NCBI GenBank assembly: GCA_024278855.1
Contig: JAJRSJ010000023.1
Location: 1-64,000 of the forward strand
Length of the DNA stretch: 64,000 bases
Reading direction: 5' to 3'
From: Alphaproteobacteria bacterium
Lineage (GTDB): Bacteria; Pseudomonadota; Alphaproteobacteria; Caulobacterales; Maricaulaceae
Positions within the stretch are counted from its first letter, which is position 1; each line of letters starts with the position of its first letter. The notes beneath the pieces are model-generated. The model was not told where the DNA came from, ran no database searches, and was given only the letters and a program-made list of their open reading frames with translations. The translations under genes and the position numbers were made by a program. Of the stretch, positions 2,318-40,822 are shown one piece after another.

Positions 2318-4048
2318 ATGGGAAAAGTCAGATTAATAACTATGTCTGCGATATTGACGCTCGCCCTGTTCGGCTTGCCTGCATGTACGACAGTTTAGAA
2401 AGAAAACAATTTTGAAGCGGGCATAACCCTGTCGCCTACGGCTCAGTTATATGCGGACTATGTGTCGGGTAGCTATGCCTATAATCTTGGCGATGCGGCT
2501 AGGCGCTCCAGTTTTTATGCTAAAGCCTTTGCCCGCCGCCCGCGAGATTTGGATTTGGGCCGCAAAGCAATGGCGGCGGCGATCAATAATGATGATACCG
2601 GGTTATCGCGTAGATTGGCCCGCAAAATCATTGTGCTTGAGCCTACGGACGGCGTGGCGCGAGCTGTATTGGGCGCACAAGCTTTGGCGAATGGTCAGTA
2701 CAAAAAAACTATTGATATATTGGACAATGCTAGTGGGGGTATCGGCGTCGAGGACTTTAATTCCATGATGCGCGGTTGGGCCAAATACGGGCTAGGGAAA
2801 AAGAAATCGGCGATTGCAACTTTTGATAATATGCAAGGTGGGGGTTATTTCGAATATTTGGGTAAAATGCAAAGAGCCATTGTTGATATGGATTTGGGCA
2901 ATGTAAAGAAGGCCGAAAAATATTTCGCCGAAATTGACGAGGTAAATTTAGCCCCGATCGAATCCACCTTGGCACAAGTGCGCGGGTTGATGTTGCGCGG
3001 TGAAAAAGACAAAGCCCTTGAGAAATTGCAAACATATGCTGATGAGAATAATGGGTCGCTTAGTGGGCCGATCCGCGCATTTATTAACGCCATTGAAAAG
3101 GACAAAAATCTTGAATGGAAATTGACCCCTGCTCAGTTGGCTTCACGGGCTATGACTGAGCCGGCTTTTCGGTATTACGGTGCCAAACAGCAATTTCATT
3201 CCGCTGAAACATTTCTGCGCTTGGCCCTAGTGTTGGACCCGCACAATGACAAAGCAAAGCTTTTTCTGGGCACTATTTTAGAGGAAGTTGAGCGCAATGA
3301 AGCGGCCTTGCAAACATATAGACAAATTTCGAAAGTTTCCGAGTTTTCCGTCTCGGCGCGTTTGGCAGAGGCTGACATTTTATTTGGCGCGGATAAAAAT
3401 ACGGAAGGATTGGCGGTATTGGAATCTATACAAAAGTCCCATCCTTCGCGGGTAACGCAGGGGTCTTTGGGGCGGGCCTATCTTATCATGGAAGAATACG
3501 AAAATGCGCTCCCTTTTTACGAAGCTTTGATTGAGGAAATGTCTGCAGACGAGCTTGAGAACAATCCTGTACCGCACTATGTGCGCGGCATTATTCTTGA
3601 GCGGTTAGGCCGTTGGCAAGAGGCAGTGGCGGATTTTGAATTTGTCCTCAAACACCAACCAGATAATGCAGATGCGCTTAATTATCTGGGATATACTTGG
3701 GTCGATAAAGGGGTTAATTTGACCAAAGCGTTTATCATGATTGAAAAAGCGGTGGAGTTGGAGCCAAAAAGCGGGGCGATTATCGACAGTTTGGGCTGGG
3801 CTCACTATAAATTGGGTCGATATGCCCAAGCCAGGGTGAATCTGGAGGAGGCGGCCCAGCGTTCCCCAACCAGTGCTACGATTATTGACCATCTTGGAGA
3901 CGTATATTGGAAACTAGGGCGCGAGAAAGAGGCTGGATATCAATGGACTAGGGCTGCAAGTCTTGACCCGACCGAGGAGGAGCTTAGGATAATCAAGATC
4001 AAACTTAAAGACGGTCTTGATGCTGTCATTGTCACAGATAAGCGTTGA
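2318..4048 (+). CDS. TPR-repeat lipoprotein, interrupted by an in-frame amber codon
   Basis: From ATG 2318 the frame encodes a lipoprotein signal (hydrophobic stretch ending LPACTT, lipobox LPAC). An in-frame TAG at 2396-2398 (codon 27) follows, after which the same frame runs open to 4048. The long part is rich in tetratricopeptide repeats, clearest in the last 150 residues (for example GYTWVDKG, DSLGWAHYKLGRYAQA, DHLGDVYWKLGREKEA). The likely role is an outer-membrane-anchored protein-protein scaffold. Without the leader, translation could only start at GTG 2462, giving a cytoplasmic protein, which makes little sense. One substitution would restore the gene. It lies 6 bases before ispE and is probably co-transcribed with it. 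Confidence 0.8.
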
Positions 4049-4054
4049 TCCCCG

Positions 4055-4912
4055 TTGACGAAAATCGCCAAATATTCCGAGATCGCTCGGGCAAAAATCA
4101 ATCTTACATTACATGTAGGCCCGGTGCAAGACAATGGCTATCACCCCTTACACAGCCTTGTGGGGTTTGCAGATTTTGGAGATAGGGTCGACGCAAAAAC
4201 TGCAGGTGCATTTAGCTTAAATGTACAAGGCCCATTCGCCGGGGATACACCCGGCGGGGATAAAAATTTGATCATGGAAGCCGTGAAACTTGTTGCCAAG
4301 CACAACAAAGTACAAGCTAAACTTGCCTATAGTTTGACTAAAAACCTACCGGTTACGTCCGGCATTGGCGGCGGCAGTGCCGATGCGGCGGCGGCCCTTA
4401 GAATATTGGCGCAGGCGGAGCATGTCAGCTGGTCGGAACATGCGGAAGGTTTCTTGCCCTTGGGGGCTGATATTCCGGTCTGTTATCTGTCCCGCACCTG
4501 TGTCATGCAAGGCATCGGCGAGCAGATATTACCTTGGCCTGGACTAGGGCAAGTCGCTGCCGTGCTCGTCAATCCGGGGGTTGGTCTTCATACGGGCGAG
4601 GTTTTTGCAAGTTTTGATACTGTAGGCATGTCTTCGAAATTCACCTTGCCTGCCGGGTCTTTGCTCGATATGGCAAGAGCCGGGCGCAATGATTTGCAAG
4701 GGGTTGCAATAAGGCTGCAGCCCGTCATCGAGACGGTGCTTGAGGAAATTTCCCACCAAACAGACTGCAATTTGGCCCGTATGTCCGGTTCGGGTGCCAG
4801 TTGTTTTGGTTTGTTCCCAAGTTTGGAAAAAGCCCAAAGGGCGGCGAAAGATATTCAACAAAACCATCCAAAATGGTGGTGTGCTCCGGCCTTGCTCGGG
4901 GACGCAATGTGA
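4055..4912 (+). CDS. ispE: 4-diphosphocytidyl-2-C-methyl-D-erythritol kinase
   Basis: Phosphorylates the 2-hydroxyl of CDP-methylerythritol in the non-mevalonate isoprenoid pathway. The GHMP-kinase ATP loop PVTSGIGGGSADAAAAL is at about residues 97-113. The N-terminus ARAKINLTLHVG and the C-terminal MSGSGASCFGLF loop are both typical. Length (285) fits the family. The start is TTG, since no ATG or GTG lies between the preceding stop and the conserved KIN motif. A prenyl diphosphate synthase lies next door on the other strand, so two isoprenoid genes are neighbours without sharing an operon. Confidence 0.95.
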   Translation: MTKIAKYSEIARAKINLTLHVGPVQDNGYHPLHSLVGFADFGDRVDAKTAGAFSLNVQGPFAGDTPGGDKNLIMEAVKLVAKHNKVQAKLAYSLTKNLPVTSGIGGGSADAAAALRILAQAEHVSWSEHAEGFLPLGADIPVCYLSRTCVMQGIGEQILPWPGLGQVAAVLVNPGVGLHTGEVFASFDTVGMSSKFTLPAGSLLDMARAGRNDLQGVAIRLQPVIETVLEEISHQTDCNLARMSGSGASCFGLFPSLEKAQRAAKDIQQNHPKWWCAPALLGDAM

Positions 4913-8302: not shown

Positions 8303-10465
8303 ATGTCTGAACTTCTATTGGAAATCATGTGCGAGGAAATTCCGGCGCGGATGCAGGTTAAGGCCGGGGCGGATTTGGCACGTATGCTCTCGGATGCCTT
8401 GGCTAAAGCCGGGTTGGATGTGGACAATGTGCAGACATTCACCGGGCCGCGAAGATTGGTGTTTGTGGCCGATGTGCCGCTGCGTAGCCCGGACGTGAAA
8501 GAAGAACGCAAGGGGCCGCGTGTTGGGTCGCCGCAGCAAGCTTTGGCCGGATTTATGCGCGGGGCGGGCTTGAACGATATATCCGAGGCCGAAATCCGCA
8601 GCGATAAAAAGGGCGAGCATTATGTGGCTATTTTGGAAAAACCGGGACGGGATGCTTCGGATATAATCGCGGCGGCAGTCCCCGAAATCATGGGTAAATT
8701 CCCGTGGCCAAAGTCCATGAAGTCCGGTGATAGCAGTTTTCGCTGGGTGCGGCCTTTAACCTCAATATTATGTATTTCAGACGGCAGAATCGTGCCCTTT
8801 AGTGTCGGGGGCATAGACAGCGGCAATATCACCCAAGGTCATCGCCGTATGGGACGCGGGCCTTACTCCGTTACCAATTTCAAAGCCTATAAAAACACAT
8901 TGCAAACCAAAGGCCATGTGATTTTGTCGGCACAGGCCCGGGCGGACATAATTTTACGCAATGCCAAAACGGTGTGCGCCAAGGCCGGATTGGAACTGGT
9001 TGAGGACATTGGCTTGCTAGCCGAGGTTGCGGGACTGGTCGAATGGCCCGTGGTTATTCTAGGTGATATGGACGCAGCGTTTTTGGAGCTGCCCGCAGAC
9101 GTAATCCGCCTGTCCATGCGCACCCACCAGAAATATTTCGCCCTCAAAGACAAGGCCGGCAACCTGGCCCCAAATTTCATCGTCGTCGCCAATCAAGAAG
9201 CCCCGGACGGCGGTGTTGAGATTGCGCGGGGCAATGCGCGGGTATTGTCAGCACGACTGGATGATGCAAGGTTCTTCCAGGCCGAAGACGCCAAGCGTAC
9301 ACTGGAGTCCCGCTACGACGAACTGGACGGCATCGAATTCTATAAGGGTTTGGGCACTATAAAAGACAAATCCGGACGTGTCGCCGCCCTAGCAAGAGAG
9401 CTAGCACCCAAGGTAGGCGCAGACCCGGACATGGCTGAACAAGCGGCGCGATTAGCCAAATGTGATCTGGTCACCAAGAGGGGAGTAGAATTCACCAGTC
9501 TGCAAGGCAAAATCGGGCGGTTGAGGTACGAGGCATAGGGCGGCGATAAGGACATAGCGACCGCAATAGAAGACCACTACAAACCCCAAGGCCCAAGCGA
9601 CAGCGTGCCAACCAACCCGGTCGCCGTAGCGGTAGCGCTAGCCGACAAACTAGACACCCTAGTAGGCTTCTGGGCCATAGACGAGAAGCCGACGGGGAGT
9701 AAGGACCCCTATGCGTTGCGCCGTGCGGCGCTTGGGGTGGTGCGGATTATTTTGGAGAGTGGGGTAACTATTATTCTCCAAGAAACCTTGGAAGGGCATT
9801 TTTTACTCAAACAACCAAGGTTTCGAGATGGATATGGATTTGAAAATACAACAGAAACATTCCTAGAATTTTGCACCATGAATACGGGCGGCGGATATGG
9901 CGCCGGTGTAGATAACATTCGAGTTGTTCGAGAACATGCAGGTGAGATAACTAATAATTTATTGGATTTCATCCTAGACCGCCTGAAAGTTCATCTGCGT
10001 GAGCAAGGTGTCAAGCACGACCATATAGACGCAGTATTCTCCCTAGGCGGGGACGACCTTATTGACATCACCAATCGTGTAACCGCCCTCGGCGCATTCC
10101 TCTCCACTGACGACGGCGCAAACCTCCTCGCGGGGTACAAACGCGCCGTTAACATCCTCAAGGCCGAAGCTAAAAAAGGGGCGTTGCCTGATGCGGAGCC
10201 GGGGCGGGGGACACAGGTTGAAGAGGGTGCGCTTTATGATGCGCTTGCGGTCGCGGGGCCTGCTATCGAGACCGCTTTGGCGGCGGAGGATTACGCCGGG
10301 GCCATGACGGCTTTGGCGGGGTTGCGCGGGCCTATTGATGTGTTTTTTGATGAGGTTACGGTGAATTCTGATGTGGCGGCAGAGCGGGATAATAGATTGG
10401 GGCTTTTGATGCAGGTACGTAAATTGGCCGGGACGATTGCTGATTTTGATAAAGTGGAGGGTTAG
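8303..10465 (+). CDS. glyS: Glycyl-tRNA synthetase beta subunit, with an in-frame amber codon
   Basis: Beta subunit of the tetrameric glycyl-tRNA synthetase, needed for tRNA binding. The frame is uninterrupted from ATG 8303 except for TAG at 9536-9538. Both sides are well conserved: LQGKIGR before the stop and [30 protein letters not shown] and [18 protein letters not shown] after it. The stop sits in the variable loop just after the LQG motif. The gene is essential, so suppression, a sequencing error or a second copy elsewhere is expected. Codon choice shifts locally (about 9380-9690) to CTA, ATA and GTA, unlike the TTG/ATT style around it. The total of about 720 codons is slightly longer than usual. 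Confidence 0.9.
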
Positions 10466-10488
10466 ATGGTTGGTGAACAGTTTTGTCC

Positions 10489-10648
10489 TTCCTCCGTTTA
10501 CGGGGGAAGTACCCCGAAGGGGGGATGGGGGGCGTCGCTCTTGCGACGCTACAAAGTTATAGGGGTTTTCGAACGTCTGTTGCGCACAAGATGTGCGCCC
10601 CCCCATCGCCTGCGCAAGAGCTACGGCACTTCCCCCGTAAACGGAGGA
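10489..10648. repeat. Palindromic intergenic repeat, family C, copy 1 (carries the ppdK ribosome-binding site)
   Basis: Terminal arms TCCTCCGTTTACGGGGGAAGT and its near-exact reverse complement at the right end enclose about 115 bases. The interior has further inverted segments (GCGTCGC/GCGACGC and GGGGGGATGGGG/CCCCCCCATCG). The right arm ends ACGGAGGA, which lies 8-10 bases before the ppdK ATG and acts as its Shine-Dalgarno. Related pieces lie at 16831 and at the window end. Confidence 0.85.
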
Positions 10649-15230: not shown

Positions 15231-16757
15231 CTAAACCAGTTGATTGTAAGTTATATAAGAGGAATGCGGCGGGTTACTTGCGCCGGGAAAGTCAGTGCGG
15301 GTGTGGCCGCCTCTGCTTTCCTCGCGCGCCAGAGCGCCTGATGCGATAAACCGTGCGGCGATGAGCGGGTTGGCTTCGCCGACCTGCTCGGTCAGCTCCG
15401 CGATAATATCAAGCAATGTGTTCAGCCCGCCCGAATTACGCAACACGCCGCAATATTTTGTCATATTAGTGCGCAGGGTTTCGCTTACCTCCGCAGTCAT
15501 GGCCAGCCAGGGTTGGGGGCCGATATGCTCGGCCCGGCGTCTTGGGTGACTGCCAGTATTGATAGCATTGGCGGCGCGGTTGCCAAACACTATGGCTTCC
15601 AGAAGTGAATTGCTTGCCAAGCGGTTGGCGCCGTGAACGCCCGCGCTGGCGCACTCGCCCACGGCCCATAGGCCGGGCAAATTGCTGCGGCCCTCATCAT
15701 CAGTCATGATACCGCCCATATGATAATGCACGGCGGGAGCTATGGGGATAAGCTCGGTGCGTGGGTCAATGCCTGCGCTCATGCAGCTGGCGAAAACGGT
15801 CGGGAATTCTTCGGGGAAATGTGCCCCCACGGCAGTGCGGCAATCCAGAAACGGCGGCTCGCCTTTTTGGATTTGCGCGAATACGGCGCGACTGACATCA
15901 TCACGCGGGGCTAATTCGCCGTCCTTGTGGTATTTATCCATAAAGCGCTTGCCATCCGCCGTGACTAAAGTCGCACCCTCGCCGCGCAGGGCTTCAGTGG
16001 CCAAGGGGTTGGGGTCGCGGTCTATGTCAATGGCGGTGGGGTGAAACTGGACAAACTCCGGGTCGCGGATGATTGCTCCGTGAACTGCGGCCATGCCGAG
16101 TGCGTCGCCGCGAGAGGTTTTGGGATTGGTGGTGGTTTTGAACAGCCCGCCAACCCCGCCCGTGGTCAAGACGGTAATATCGGCCTGCACGGCCATGAGC
16201 GAACCGTCGTCCTTGCGGGCCATGGCCCCGGCGATACCACCTTTGCCGTCGGGTAAAAGCGTTTCCGCCCGCCAACCCAGTAGCGGTGTGATATGTTCGG
16301 CATCTTTAGCTTGCTCAACCATAGTTTCGATGATGGCTTTACCCGCCAAATCACCTTTGACCCGCGCCACACGGGGACGCCCGTGGGCCGCCTCCAGCGA
16401 CAGCACCAAATCCCCACGCGGATCCGTATCAAACTCGACCCCGTACTGCATCAAATCGCGCACCCGCGCCGGCCCTTCGGACGCGAGGATCATAGCCACC
16501 CGCTCGTCCACCAAACCATCCCCCGCCGCTACGGTATCGCGTGCATGATCTGCCGCCGTATCCCCCGCGCCAATAGCAGACGCAATCCCGCCTTGCGCCC
16601 AGGCCGAAGCCGCGCCCTCACCTTGCCTCATGGATGTCAAAATATAAACCGGGCGCGGCGCAAGTTTAAGCGCCGTAAACAACCCGGCCAGACCTGCGCC
16701 CACTATGAGGACAGCGCCGGCAGGCAGCCGGGTCGTTTCGAGATCACCTAATGGCAT
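15231..16757 (-). CDS. nadB: L-aspartate oxidase
   Basis: Flavoprotein that oxidises L-aspartate to iminoaspartate, the first step of de novo NAD synthesis. FAD-binding VLIVGAGLAGLFTALKLA is near the N-terminus, EGAASAWAQGGIASAIG follows, and the active-site region is FVQFHPTAI and LATEALRGEGA. VGECASAGVHGANRLASNSLLEA is present near 355. The C-terminus has EESRGGHTRTDFP. 508 residues, normal. The usual nadA partner lies 1.7 kb upstream, displaced by an accessory segment. Confidence 0.97.
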   Translation of the reverse strand: MPLGDLETTRLPAGAVLIVGAGLAGLFTALKLAPRPVYILTSMRQGEGAASAWAQGGIASAIGAGDTAADHARDTVAAGDGLVDERVAMILASEGPARVRDLMQYGVEFDTDPRGDLVLSLEAAHGRPRVARVKGDLAGKAIIETMVEQAKDAEHITPLLGWRAETLLPDGKGGIAGAMARKDDGSLMAVQADITVLTTGGVGGLFKTTTNPKTSRGDALGMAAVHGAIIRDPEFVQFHPTAIDIDRDPNPLATEALRGEGATLVTADGKRFMDKYHKDGELAPRDDVSRAVFAQIQKGEPPFLDCRTAVGAHFPEEFPTVFASCMSAGIDPRTELIPIAPAVHYHMGGIMTDDEGRSNLPGLWAVGECASAGVHGANRLASNSLLEAIVFGNRAANAINTGSHPRRRAEHIGPQPWLAMTAEVSETLRTNMTKYCGVLRNSGGLNTLLDIIAELTEQVGEANPLIAARFIASGALAREESRGGHTRTDFPGASNPPHSSYITYNQLV

Positions 16758-16884: not shown

Positions 16885-16912
16885 CGCTCACCCCTGCGAA
16901 TGCAGGGGTCTA
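16885..16912. repeat. Hairpin repeat, family A, copy 1 (contains the stop codon of the GIY-YIG gene)
   Basis: CGCTCA-CCCCTGCGAATGCAGGGG-TCTA. The perfect stem CCCCTGC/GCAGGGG has a short loop. On the minus strand it reads TAGA-hairpin-TGAGCG, and the leading TAG is the stop codon of the nuclease gene. Confidence 0.9.
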
Positions 16913-17248
16913 TTGCCGGGGTTTAGGTGAATGTGGGAGCACAGGTAAATGGCCTTGCAAAGGTGGCCAAACTGGTTGCTCATGAATGTCCAGCCAAAAG
17001 GGGTTTTCCAGTTCAATGGTGTTTAACTTGTAAGCACGTTTCCATTTTTTGATTTGTCGTTCTTTTTTAAACGCGGCGTCACGGCTGGAAAACTCTTTAA
17101 ACCAAACCAGTTTGTCACACCCATATTTTGCCGTGAACCCGTCAAATATTTTCTGTTTGTGCTGTTCCATCCGGGCGGACAAATCATCCGTATGACCAGT
17201 GTAAAGGGTTCCGCGTGGCTTGTTCGTGCAAATATATGTATAGAACAT
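16910..17248 (-). CDS. Small GIY-YIG (URI-type) nuclease
   Basis: A 112-residue stand-alone GIY-YIG domain of the UvrC/Intron-type (URI) group. The N-terminal MFYTYICTNKPRGTLYTGHT gives the YxYI and LYTGHT forms of the motif, then the catalytic Arg in DLSARMEQHK, and KYGCDKLVWFKEF, AAFKKERQIKKWKR with the conserved Glu and Lys. Such proteins are expected to nick or cut DNA; their cellular role is unsettled. The ATG at 17248 begins the motif. Family A hairpins flank the gene in opposite orientation, one containing its stop codon, the other 56 bases before its start. It sits between nadB and nadA, in an accessory patch. Confidence 0.9.
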   Translation of the reverse strand: MFYTYICTNKPRGTLYTGHTDDLSARMEQHKQKIFDGFTAKYGCDKLVWFKEFSSRDAAFKKERQIKKWKRAYKLNTIELENPFWLDIHEQPVWPPLQGHLPVLPHSPKPRQ

Positions 17249-17303
17249 AAAGCGAACATATGTGTTGGTACCTGTAATGACAAGTATAAAATCAACATCA
17301 AGA

Positions 17304-17331
17304 TAGACCCCTGCATCCGCAGGGGTGAGCG
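17304..17331. repeat. Hairpin repeat, family A, copy 2
   Basis: TAGACCCCTGCATCCGCAGG then GGTGAGCG. It is inverted relative to copy 1 and lies just upstream of the GIY-YIG start. The stem is CCCCTGC/GCAGGGG. Confidence 0.88.
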
Positions 17332-17453: not shown

Positions 17454-17482
17454 CGCTCACACCCGCGAATGCGGGTGTCCAT
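17454..17482. repeat. Hairpin repeat, family A, copy 3 (stem variant)
   Basis: CGCTCA-CACCCGC-GAAT-GCGGGTG-TCCAT. The stem sequence differs from copies 1 and 2, but both arms changed together, so pairing is kept. The flanks CGCTCA and TCCAT are conserved. Confidence 0.85.
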
Positions 17483-17515: not shown

Positions 17516-17545
17516 ATGGATACCTGTATGCACAGGTATGAGCGG
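17516..17545. repeat. Hairpin repeat, family A, copy 4 (stem variant)
   Basis: ATGGA-TACCTGTATGCACAGGTA-TGAGCGG. It is inverted relative to copy 3, 33 bases away, so the two form a divergent pair. Confidence 0.85.
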
Positions 17546-17594: not shown

Positions 17595-17713
17595 TACTGG
17601 CGCAGGCCGATATCCATCTTTCTTAAATATGTGGGGTATGCCCTTGAAAAGAACAAATAGAGCACATATATAAAGTGGGTGCAATAGATTCACCTTTAAG
17701 CAATGGGGGCTAC

Positions 17714-18439
17714 ATGAGCGTCAATAGTAATAGCGAAGAACAGTTACCATCTGGTAGAGAAGAAGCATTTGTCGTTTTCGAAAAAAAAGCACGGATTGAT
17801 TATGTAGGTTGGTCACGTAATGACCGTGATAACAATACGGATAGCAATGGTCAATATCTTGGCTCATATGATCCTGAAAGAACCTATGTTACCAAAATGC
17901 TTGCATTTTTAGATGAATATGATTTGGAAAATAGTATCGCAGATATTTCGGGGCTTATTGACGATGATTTCATTCAAAAATTTAGTGGGTTTGAACAAAA
18001 AATGACTTATATGGCTACTCGGTTTCGGCTGCGCAAATGGAGAATTGATGCAGGTATAGTTGGTACAATGATAATGATTGCGCCAACCTATAAATCAGAA
18101 ATAGGTAAACTTCTTGAAACAATAAGAAAAATAGTAAATCAAGAAGTGAGAGATAAAAACAAGAAGGATAAAATTTTTTCTAAAATAGCCAGCCTCCAAT
18201 CAGAAGTAGACCGCGAGCAAACGACTATAGATGCATTGTTTGGGCGGATGATTGATTTGTCAAAAACCGTTGGAGAGTGTGCAGAAAATTTAGAGCCCCT
18301 TCTTGAAAAAATGGAACGGGTCAAAAAGCTCTTATGGGATAATTCAAAAAAAGTAGAAATGCTTCCAAAACAAGAACGGCCAAAGCTCATCACAAAAGCA
18401 GACGAAGAGTTTGATATTGATGGTGATATTCCATTCTAA
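17714..18439 (+). CDS. Coiled-coil protein of unknown function with an SSB-like C-terminal tip
   Basis: I do not recognise the family. 241 residues, acidic N-terminal half with a short WSRNDRDNNTDSNG segment, and a mainly helical second half. A predicted coiled coil spans about 135-220 (Lys/Glu-rich, with FSKIASLQSEVDREQTTIDALFG inside). The last residues are DEEFDIDGDIPF. An acidic run ending D-I-P-F is the hallmark of single-stranded DNA-binding protein tails, which dock repair and replication enzymes. No OB-fold is visible. ATG 17714 is chosen over an upstream GTG because it follows GGGGGC. It lies in the patch that separates nadA from nadBC and is AT-richer than its neighbours. Confidence 0.75.
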   Translation: MSVNSNSEEQLPSGREEAFVVFEKKARIDYVGWSRNDRDNNTDSNGQYLGSYDPERTYVTKMLAFLDEYDLENSIADISGLIDDDFIQKFSGFEQKMTYMATRFRLRKWRIDAGIVGTMIMIAPTYKSEIGKLLETIRKIVNQEVRDKNKKDKIFSKIASLQSEVDREQTTIDALFGRMIDLSKTVGECAENLEPLLEKMERVKKLLWDNSKKVEMLPKQERPKLITKADEEFDIDGDIPF

Positions 18440-27196: not shown

Positions 27197-27226
27197 ATGG
27201 ATACCTGCATTCGCAGGTATGAGCGG
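27197..27226. repeat. Hairpin repeat, family A, copy 5
   Basis: ATGGATA-CCTGC-ATTC-GCAGG-TATGAGCGG. It forms a convergent pair with copy 6, 47 bases away, inside the gap between nhaC and the ABC ATPase gene. Confidence 0.88.
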
Positions 27227-27273: not shown

Positions 27274-27301
27274 CGCTCACCCCTGCGAATGCAGGGGTCT
27301 A
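27274..27301. repeat. Hairpin repeat, family A, copy 6
   Basis: CGCTCA-CCCCTGC-GAAT-GCAGGGG-TCTA, identical to copy 1. Placed just 3' of the ABC ATPase gene, it could act as a terminator for it. Confidence 0.9.
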
Positions 27302-40729: not shown

Positions 40730-40757
40730 CGCTCACCCCTGCGTATGCAGGGGTCTA
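40730..40757. repeat. Hairpin repeat, family A, copy 7
   Basis: CGCTCA-CCCCTGC-GTAT-GCAGGGG-TCTA. It lies just 3' of the two-domain nuclease-like gene, and with copy 8 forms a divergent pair. Confidence 0.9.
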
Positions 40758-40793: not shown

Positions 40794-40822
40794 ATGGATA
40801 CCTGTATGCACAGGTATGAGCG
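40794..40822. repeat. Hairpin repeat, family A, copy 8
   Basis: ATGGA-TACCTGTATGCACAGGTA-TGAGCG, the same stem as copy 4. It is inverted relative to copy 7, 36 bases away. Confidence 0.88.

Follow-up and report, generated by a model that had tools for sequence, protein, structure and literature searches.

A GIY-YIG nuclease gene family paired with tagged, REP-like hairpin repeats in Pseudomonadota

The window analysed here, a stretch of 64,000 nucleotides, comes from contig 30 of an alphaproteobacterial draft genome of 2.72 Mb (G000), whose nearest named relatives among the matched genomes are MAGs named Robiginitomaculum sp. It contains a small gene for a GIY-YIG nuclease, with nadB (15231–16757, minus strand) on one side and an ORF followed by nadA on the other. 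This ORF (17675–18439, plus strand, 254 amino acids) lies between the hairpin-nuclease unit and nadA and has no Pfam match. The nuclease gene and the hairpin repeats of the window are as follows.

16885–16912, plus strand: hairpin downstream of the GIY-YIG gene, CGCTCACCCCTGCGAATGCAGGGGTCTA, with tag CGCTC, an 8-bp stem, a 4-nt loop and tail CTA
16910–17248, minus strand: GIY-YIG nuclease gene, 112 amino acids and a TAG stop (ATG at 17248, TAG at 16910–16912)
17304–17331, minus strand: hairpin upstream of the GIY-YIG gene, CGCTCACCCCTGCGGATGCAGGGGTCTA, inverted relative to 16885–16912, the tags of both pointing outward
17454–17481, plus strand: hairpin, first half of an outward-tagged dimer adjoining the gene unit (pattern search, folding)
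17517–17544, minus strand: hairpin, second half of the dimer with 17454–17481, stem ATACCTG
27198–27225, minus strand: hairpin with stem ATACCTGC, beside 27274–27301, tags inward, between two genes (pattern search)
27274–27301, plus strand: hairpin of the type found in the gene flanks (pattern search, folding)
40730–40757, plus strand: hairpin of the gene-flank type, first half of an outward-tagged dimer (pattern search, folding)
40795–40822, minus strand: hairpin, partner of 40730–40757 (pattern search, folding)

The only Pfam domain of the 112-residue protein is GIY-YIG (PF01541, E 2.9e-16); no PHROG or NCBIfam family matched it, and PADLOC returned a weak match to a distant homologue only. 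Residues Y5, Y16, R26, H30 and E63 are the catalytic positions and are invariant across the nuclease family, and we take R26, H30 and E63 to correspond to the known catalytic residues of I-TevI. The predicted model has a mean pLDDT of 87, with a core at ~97 and a C-terminus modelled at low confidence. A profile search with the protein matched 1zg2 and 1ywl, and structural comparison of the predicted model gave UPF0213 1zg2 as the best match, with Slx1 also near, at a modest Z of 6.6. The protein belongs to the UPF0213/Slx1-like branch of the GIY-YIG nuclease superfamily. Slx1 is a branched-DNA nuclease, and the modelled Slx1-like fold would suit a hairpin substrate, which is only suggestive. 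Between orthologues of different genomes, dN/dS of the gene is 0.06–0.08, showing that the protein is in use and under purifying selection.

The original prediction described two opposite-facing hairpins around this gene, and the two flanking repeats are indeed inverted copies of each other, within a 41-nt pair that is 90% complementary. The upstream hairpin lies ~59 bp from the ATG and the downstream one at the stop codon, where bases 1–3 of the minus-strand repeat TAGACCCC form the TAG, just as had been read from the DNA. Stop-codon donation as a general feature was ruled out, many homologues stopping before the hairpin. Folding of the DNA gave each window repeat an 8-bp stem, a 4-nt loop and an unpaired CGCTC tag (z ~ −5). 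A search with the general pattern at 0 mismatches recovered eight window copies, namely the flanking two and exactly the six others that had been announced, compared to 0.44 ± 0.67 in shuffled sequence, which rules out a chance inverted repeat.

Over the whole genome, 21 sites were found at up to two mismatches, and none with a reversed control pattern. A narrower pattern with the exact CCCCTGC stem has only four exact copies in the window; the other window copies carry a second stem type (ACACCCGC, ATACCTGC), the dimer partner of the first. Most other copies in this genome are dimers of near-constant geometry, in which a CCCCTGC hairpin is followed after ~35 bp by an inverted ATACCTGC hairpin, with the tags outward. 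The gene unit is built likewise, except that its spacer holds the GIY-YIG gene, an arrangement also seen with REPINs and RAYT genes. Two more close copies of the gene (86 and 84% identity) are present in this genome, both with the same hairpin within 200 bp upstream, giving a repeat within 200 bp of 3/3 close gene copies. One of these paralogues has an in-frame TAA near its end. Their dS is saturated, so they are old, and movement in this genome is rare.

We next consider other genomes, in three locus sets that share some genomes or lineages and are not fully independent. Among 41 relatives, we examined 72 homologues scoring above 60 bits and 12 scoring below 50 bits; the former show a concentration of tagged hairpins in the 200 bp next to the gene, and the latter group has one. 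The same clustering within 200 bp of the nuclease gene was seen at 69 named loci in other genomes. In an even draw of 299 Pseudomonadota genomes, with 66 family homologues and 15 distant GIY-YIG genes, a hairpin lies within 200 bp of 42/66 family members compared to 1/15 of the distant genes (Fisher P 7e-5); no perfect hairpin was seen near the other 24/66 family members. Since DNA far from the gene mostly encodes protein, a plain comparison of far with near DNA overstates the enrichment, and the fair control is intergenic DNA 1–5 kb away. Against this control, tagged hairpins per kb near the gene number 2.4, 3.5 and 4.3 compared to 0.45, 0.76 and 0.93 in the three sets, a 4.6–5.3-fold enrichment (Poisson P 4e-14, 8e-10 and 5e-18, from sets sharing some loci), bearing out the expectation that homologues are flanked by repeats above chance. 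Both a general preference of REPs for intergenic DNA and plain terminators are ruled out by this ~5-fold excess.

Comparison across these genomes indicates that the gene family is coupled to CG(C)TC-tagged hairpins with an 8–9-bp stem and a 4–6-nt loop, which typically flank the gene as an inverted pair with outward tags, and we consider the pairing very probably real, established about as well as comparison allows. Two loci have features of their own. On contig 23 of G312 (9469–10614, L295), two family members lie in tandem at a distance of 0.6 kb, each with its own hairpins, which are of the same type. In G004 (L066, about 3300–3700), a different family member with 53% identity also adjoins nadB, and the spot beside nadB may be a recurrent insertion place.

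The type of hairpin follows the protein. Hairpin similarity climbs with protein identity, from 0.52 at 30–40% to 0.96 above 70%, and the Mantel r between hairpin and protein similarity is 0.53; 2000 permutations gave a null standard deviation of 0.075 and at most 0.25. When hairpins were reassigned only among paralogues of the same genome, the observed value was reached in 9/2000 cases, showing that the hairpin is tied to the protein beyond what genome membership alone explains. Additionally, when the hairpin upstream of a gene is compared with the one downstream, they match at 12.8 of 14 nt, as against 8.05 for partners swapped between genes; an outward-tagged pair is present at 34 loci. Genome comparison thus indicates a hairpin sequence particular to each protein lineage; the correlation fits both co-evolution and joint descent as one unit, and either way gene and hairpin travel together. 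Two broad types can be recognised, CG(C/T/A)TC hairpins with mostly 4-nt loops, which include those of the window, and CGTC hairpins with 4- or 5-nt loops, which dominate the phylum sample. These CGTC hairpins, found next to most homologues there, fit the class of CGTC REPs described by Di Nocera and colleagues (PMC3733652).

The number of repeats also varies with the presence of the gene. Within the genus, the exact window-type repeat has 3–12 copies in the five genomes that carry the gene at ≥80% identity and occurs in only two of the remaining nine (four copies in G002, one in G009); outside the genus, its only match among the relatives searched is a one-mismatch site in G040. Among all 299 genomes, one CGTC pattern was present three or more times in 30/75 genomes with the gene compared to 24/224 without it (OR 5.6, P 1e-7), and the association persists when stratified by taxonomic family (OR 6.6, chi-square 16.6). 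The expectation that copy number tracks the gene thus holds overall, with single exceptions. G076 has 129 CGTC repeats and no nuclease gene detectable at E 0.01, G002 has window-type repeats and no close gene, and G092 and G192 have many repeats and no gene found. Repeat-rich genomes such as G076 show that the repeats can persist after a gene is lost or exist independently of one; some genes may also be hidden by draft assembly.

Movement of the unit can be followed in two genomes. In G007, another family member is present in five copies, each at a different locus. C16 and C10 are the best-preserved pair; their homology extends from −72 to +360 around the ATG at 94.9% identity. With hairpin tags at −71 and +354, this homology ends at the hairpins. 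As in insertion sequences, terminal inverted repeats here bound near-identical copies at unrelated loci. In C27 and C9, homology to this pair stops inside the left hairpin, which is interrupted by a nested hairpin, and C6 lacks the left hairpin and has the gene and right hairpin in common with the other copies. A second dispersed repeat lies downstream of C27, C9 and C6, so not every flank is unrelated. In G005, the unit of the window is found at the same place beside nadB, but the segment bounded by the hairpins (−84 to +361) is inverted, and the DNA to either side is collinear. Comparison of genomes therefore places the hairpin-to-hairpin unit at several loci in one genome, and inverted in place in another.

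The second dispersed repeat (GGGACAGGCAAGTG..CGTTG; L240 1961–1992, L112 3423–3454, L116 752–783, L117 4074–4105) is found downstream of three of the five G007 gene copies and of one G005 hairpin dimer, and is absent from the window. At another locus (G006, L057, about 4200–4790), what by eye is an apparent IS end replaces the start of the orthologue and its upstream hairpin.

Hairpins also occur inside hairpins. A 28-nt hairpin element (CCCCGGCCTRCGCCGGGGTGARCGGAGA) is located at one position in the loops of other hairpins in 12/12 occurrences, spanning three host families and four genomes (L258, L261, L263 and nine further loci, in our own genome on contigs 6, 29, 44, 59 and 60), a count in which copies of one composite and repeated events within a host type are inseparable. 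Most of these nested insertions lack 3 nt of the host. The constant insertion site suggests a preferred cut in the hairpin loop. Orthologous empty sites at argD, radC and nadB yielded no base-precise target site or duplication, their flanking DNA being too diverged.

Together, we favour the reading that gene and hairpins make up a selfish unit akin to a REP, with a GIY-YIG nuclease in the part that RAYT transposases play elsewhere, and on the strength of the comparative data we think this somewhat probable. That the protein cuts its own hairpin is likely; that it drives the movement of hairpin-bounded DNA is plausible. In such a mechanism, the protein would recognise its hairpin when the strand is single, during replication, repair or DNA uptake, and would nick it near the loop, after which repair of the break would copy, flip or insert the hairpin-bounded DNA. 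The dispersed dimers have the layout of the gene unit minus its gene. GIY-YIG enzymes hydrolyse DNA and, to our knowledge, do not join strands, so that the insertion step would need host repair. Against the selfish-unit reading stand the repeat-rich genomes with no gene found, the 24/66 family members without a perfect hairpin, the old paralogues of our own genome and the orthologous sites that gave no base-precise empty site or target duplication.

Those same repeats without a gene, which show that the two can part, suit a nuclease that recognises the hairpins without mobilising them, cleaving single strands at the repeats as DNA is taken up or repaired and thereby shaping DNA import, while the repeats spread by ordinary recombination and slippage. 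Specific pairing, co-variation and strong purifying selection would all fit such a host-useful enzyme, and we regard this explanation as unlikely mainly on account of the hairpin-bounded G007 copies at unrelated loci and the inverted G005 unit, which show that the unit itself moves. Movement could also be supplied in trans by a RAYT or IS200-type transposase, with the nuclease as a passenger, since HUH enzymes move REP families elsewhere and the dimer layout is the same (PMC3733652). Tyrosine transposases were, however, never found flanked by CGTC repeats (PMC3733652), and the hairpin type tracks the GIY-YIG protein even within one genome, making a mobiliser of this kind improbable.

It is more improbable still that these are ordinary intergenic hairpins with a role in termination or mRNA stabilisation, whose position next to a small gene is fortuitous. 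REPs are intergenic, and one copy does supply the stop codon of the window gene, as might be expected of such hairpins; however, the ~5-fold excess is measured over other intergenic DNA, hairpins are found upstream of the gene too, distant GIY-YIG genes are without them, paired inverted copies match each other, and the tag lies outside the stem with no T-run after the hairpin.

CGTC-type REPs are widespread small repeats of alphaproteobacteria, for which the defining survey, in whose text GIY-YIG is absent, concluded that there is no dedicated transposase (Di Nocera 2013, PMC3733652). A GIY-YIG family with cognate, co-varying and co-moving hairpins is a concrete candidate driver for them. It is possible, and we propose it tentatively, that GIY-YIG nucleases are the enzymes, so far missing, that mobilise REPs of the CGTC-type superfamily. 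Such a hairpin-bounded element would spread, flip and enter the loops of other hairpins by loop nicking and repair, using no known transposase class. If true, the spread of hairpin-ended DNA by a hydrolytic nuclease would be a mechanism for mobile elements that belongs to none of the DDE, HUH and recombinase classes.

Pairing of a GIY-YIG enzyme with a repeat is probably not new in principle. In Neisseria, a 2025 Nat Commun study of Ssn/NTS reportedly describes GIY-YIG nucleases paired with the NTS repeat that cleave single-stranded DNA, with many homologues each having its own sequence; Ssn is reported to cleave single strands at these repeats while DNA is being taken up or repaired, and so to influence DNA import. 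As in Ssn/NTS, a small stand-alone GIY-YIG nuclease is found here with a cognate dispersed repeat. The present system differs in its tag CGCTC, its stem CCCCTGC and its alphaproteobacterial host, and in that two inverted hairpins enclose the gene as a unit that moves and inverts; compared to that description, the CGCTC tag, the evidence of mobility and the hairpin-in-loop insertions are newer.

The parallel with REP elements and their RAYTs drawn in the original prediction is upheld by the cognate flanking hairpins, the repeat number that tracks the gene and the moved and inverted unit. Like REP/REPIN with RAYT (GTAG superfamily), the system has a small nuclease gene between inverted palindromes, dispersed dimers without a gene and cognate pairing, but the enzyme is GIY-YIG instead of an HUH tyrosine enzyme, and the tag is CGCTC with no GTAG. 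With free-standing GIY-YIG homing endonucleases of the I-TevI type, it shares a GIY-YIG catalytic domain linked to the movement of its own gene; unlike these, it has no DNA-binding tail domain and no intron or intein, has hairpins at both ends, and has a fold nearer UPF0213/Slx1.

The CGTC REPs resemble the window repeats in their 8–9-bp stem, 4–5-nt loop, one-sided unpaired tag, short tail and frequent head-to-head dimers (PMC3733652). They differ in having an unpaired CGTC, or else TGTC or CCTC, at one end, where the window tag CGCTC is one base longer and the gene-flanking type has the tail CTA. The CGCTC repeats of the window are a sister type of the CGTC-tagged REPs, with homologues elsewhere carrying CGTC itself.
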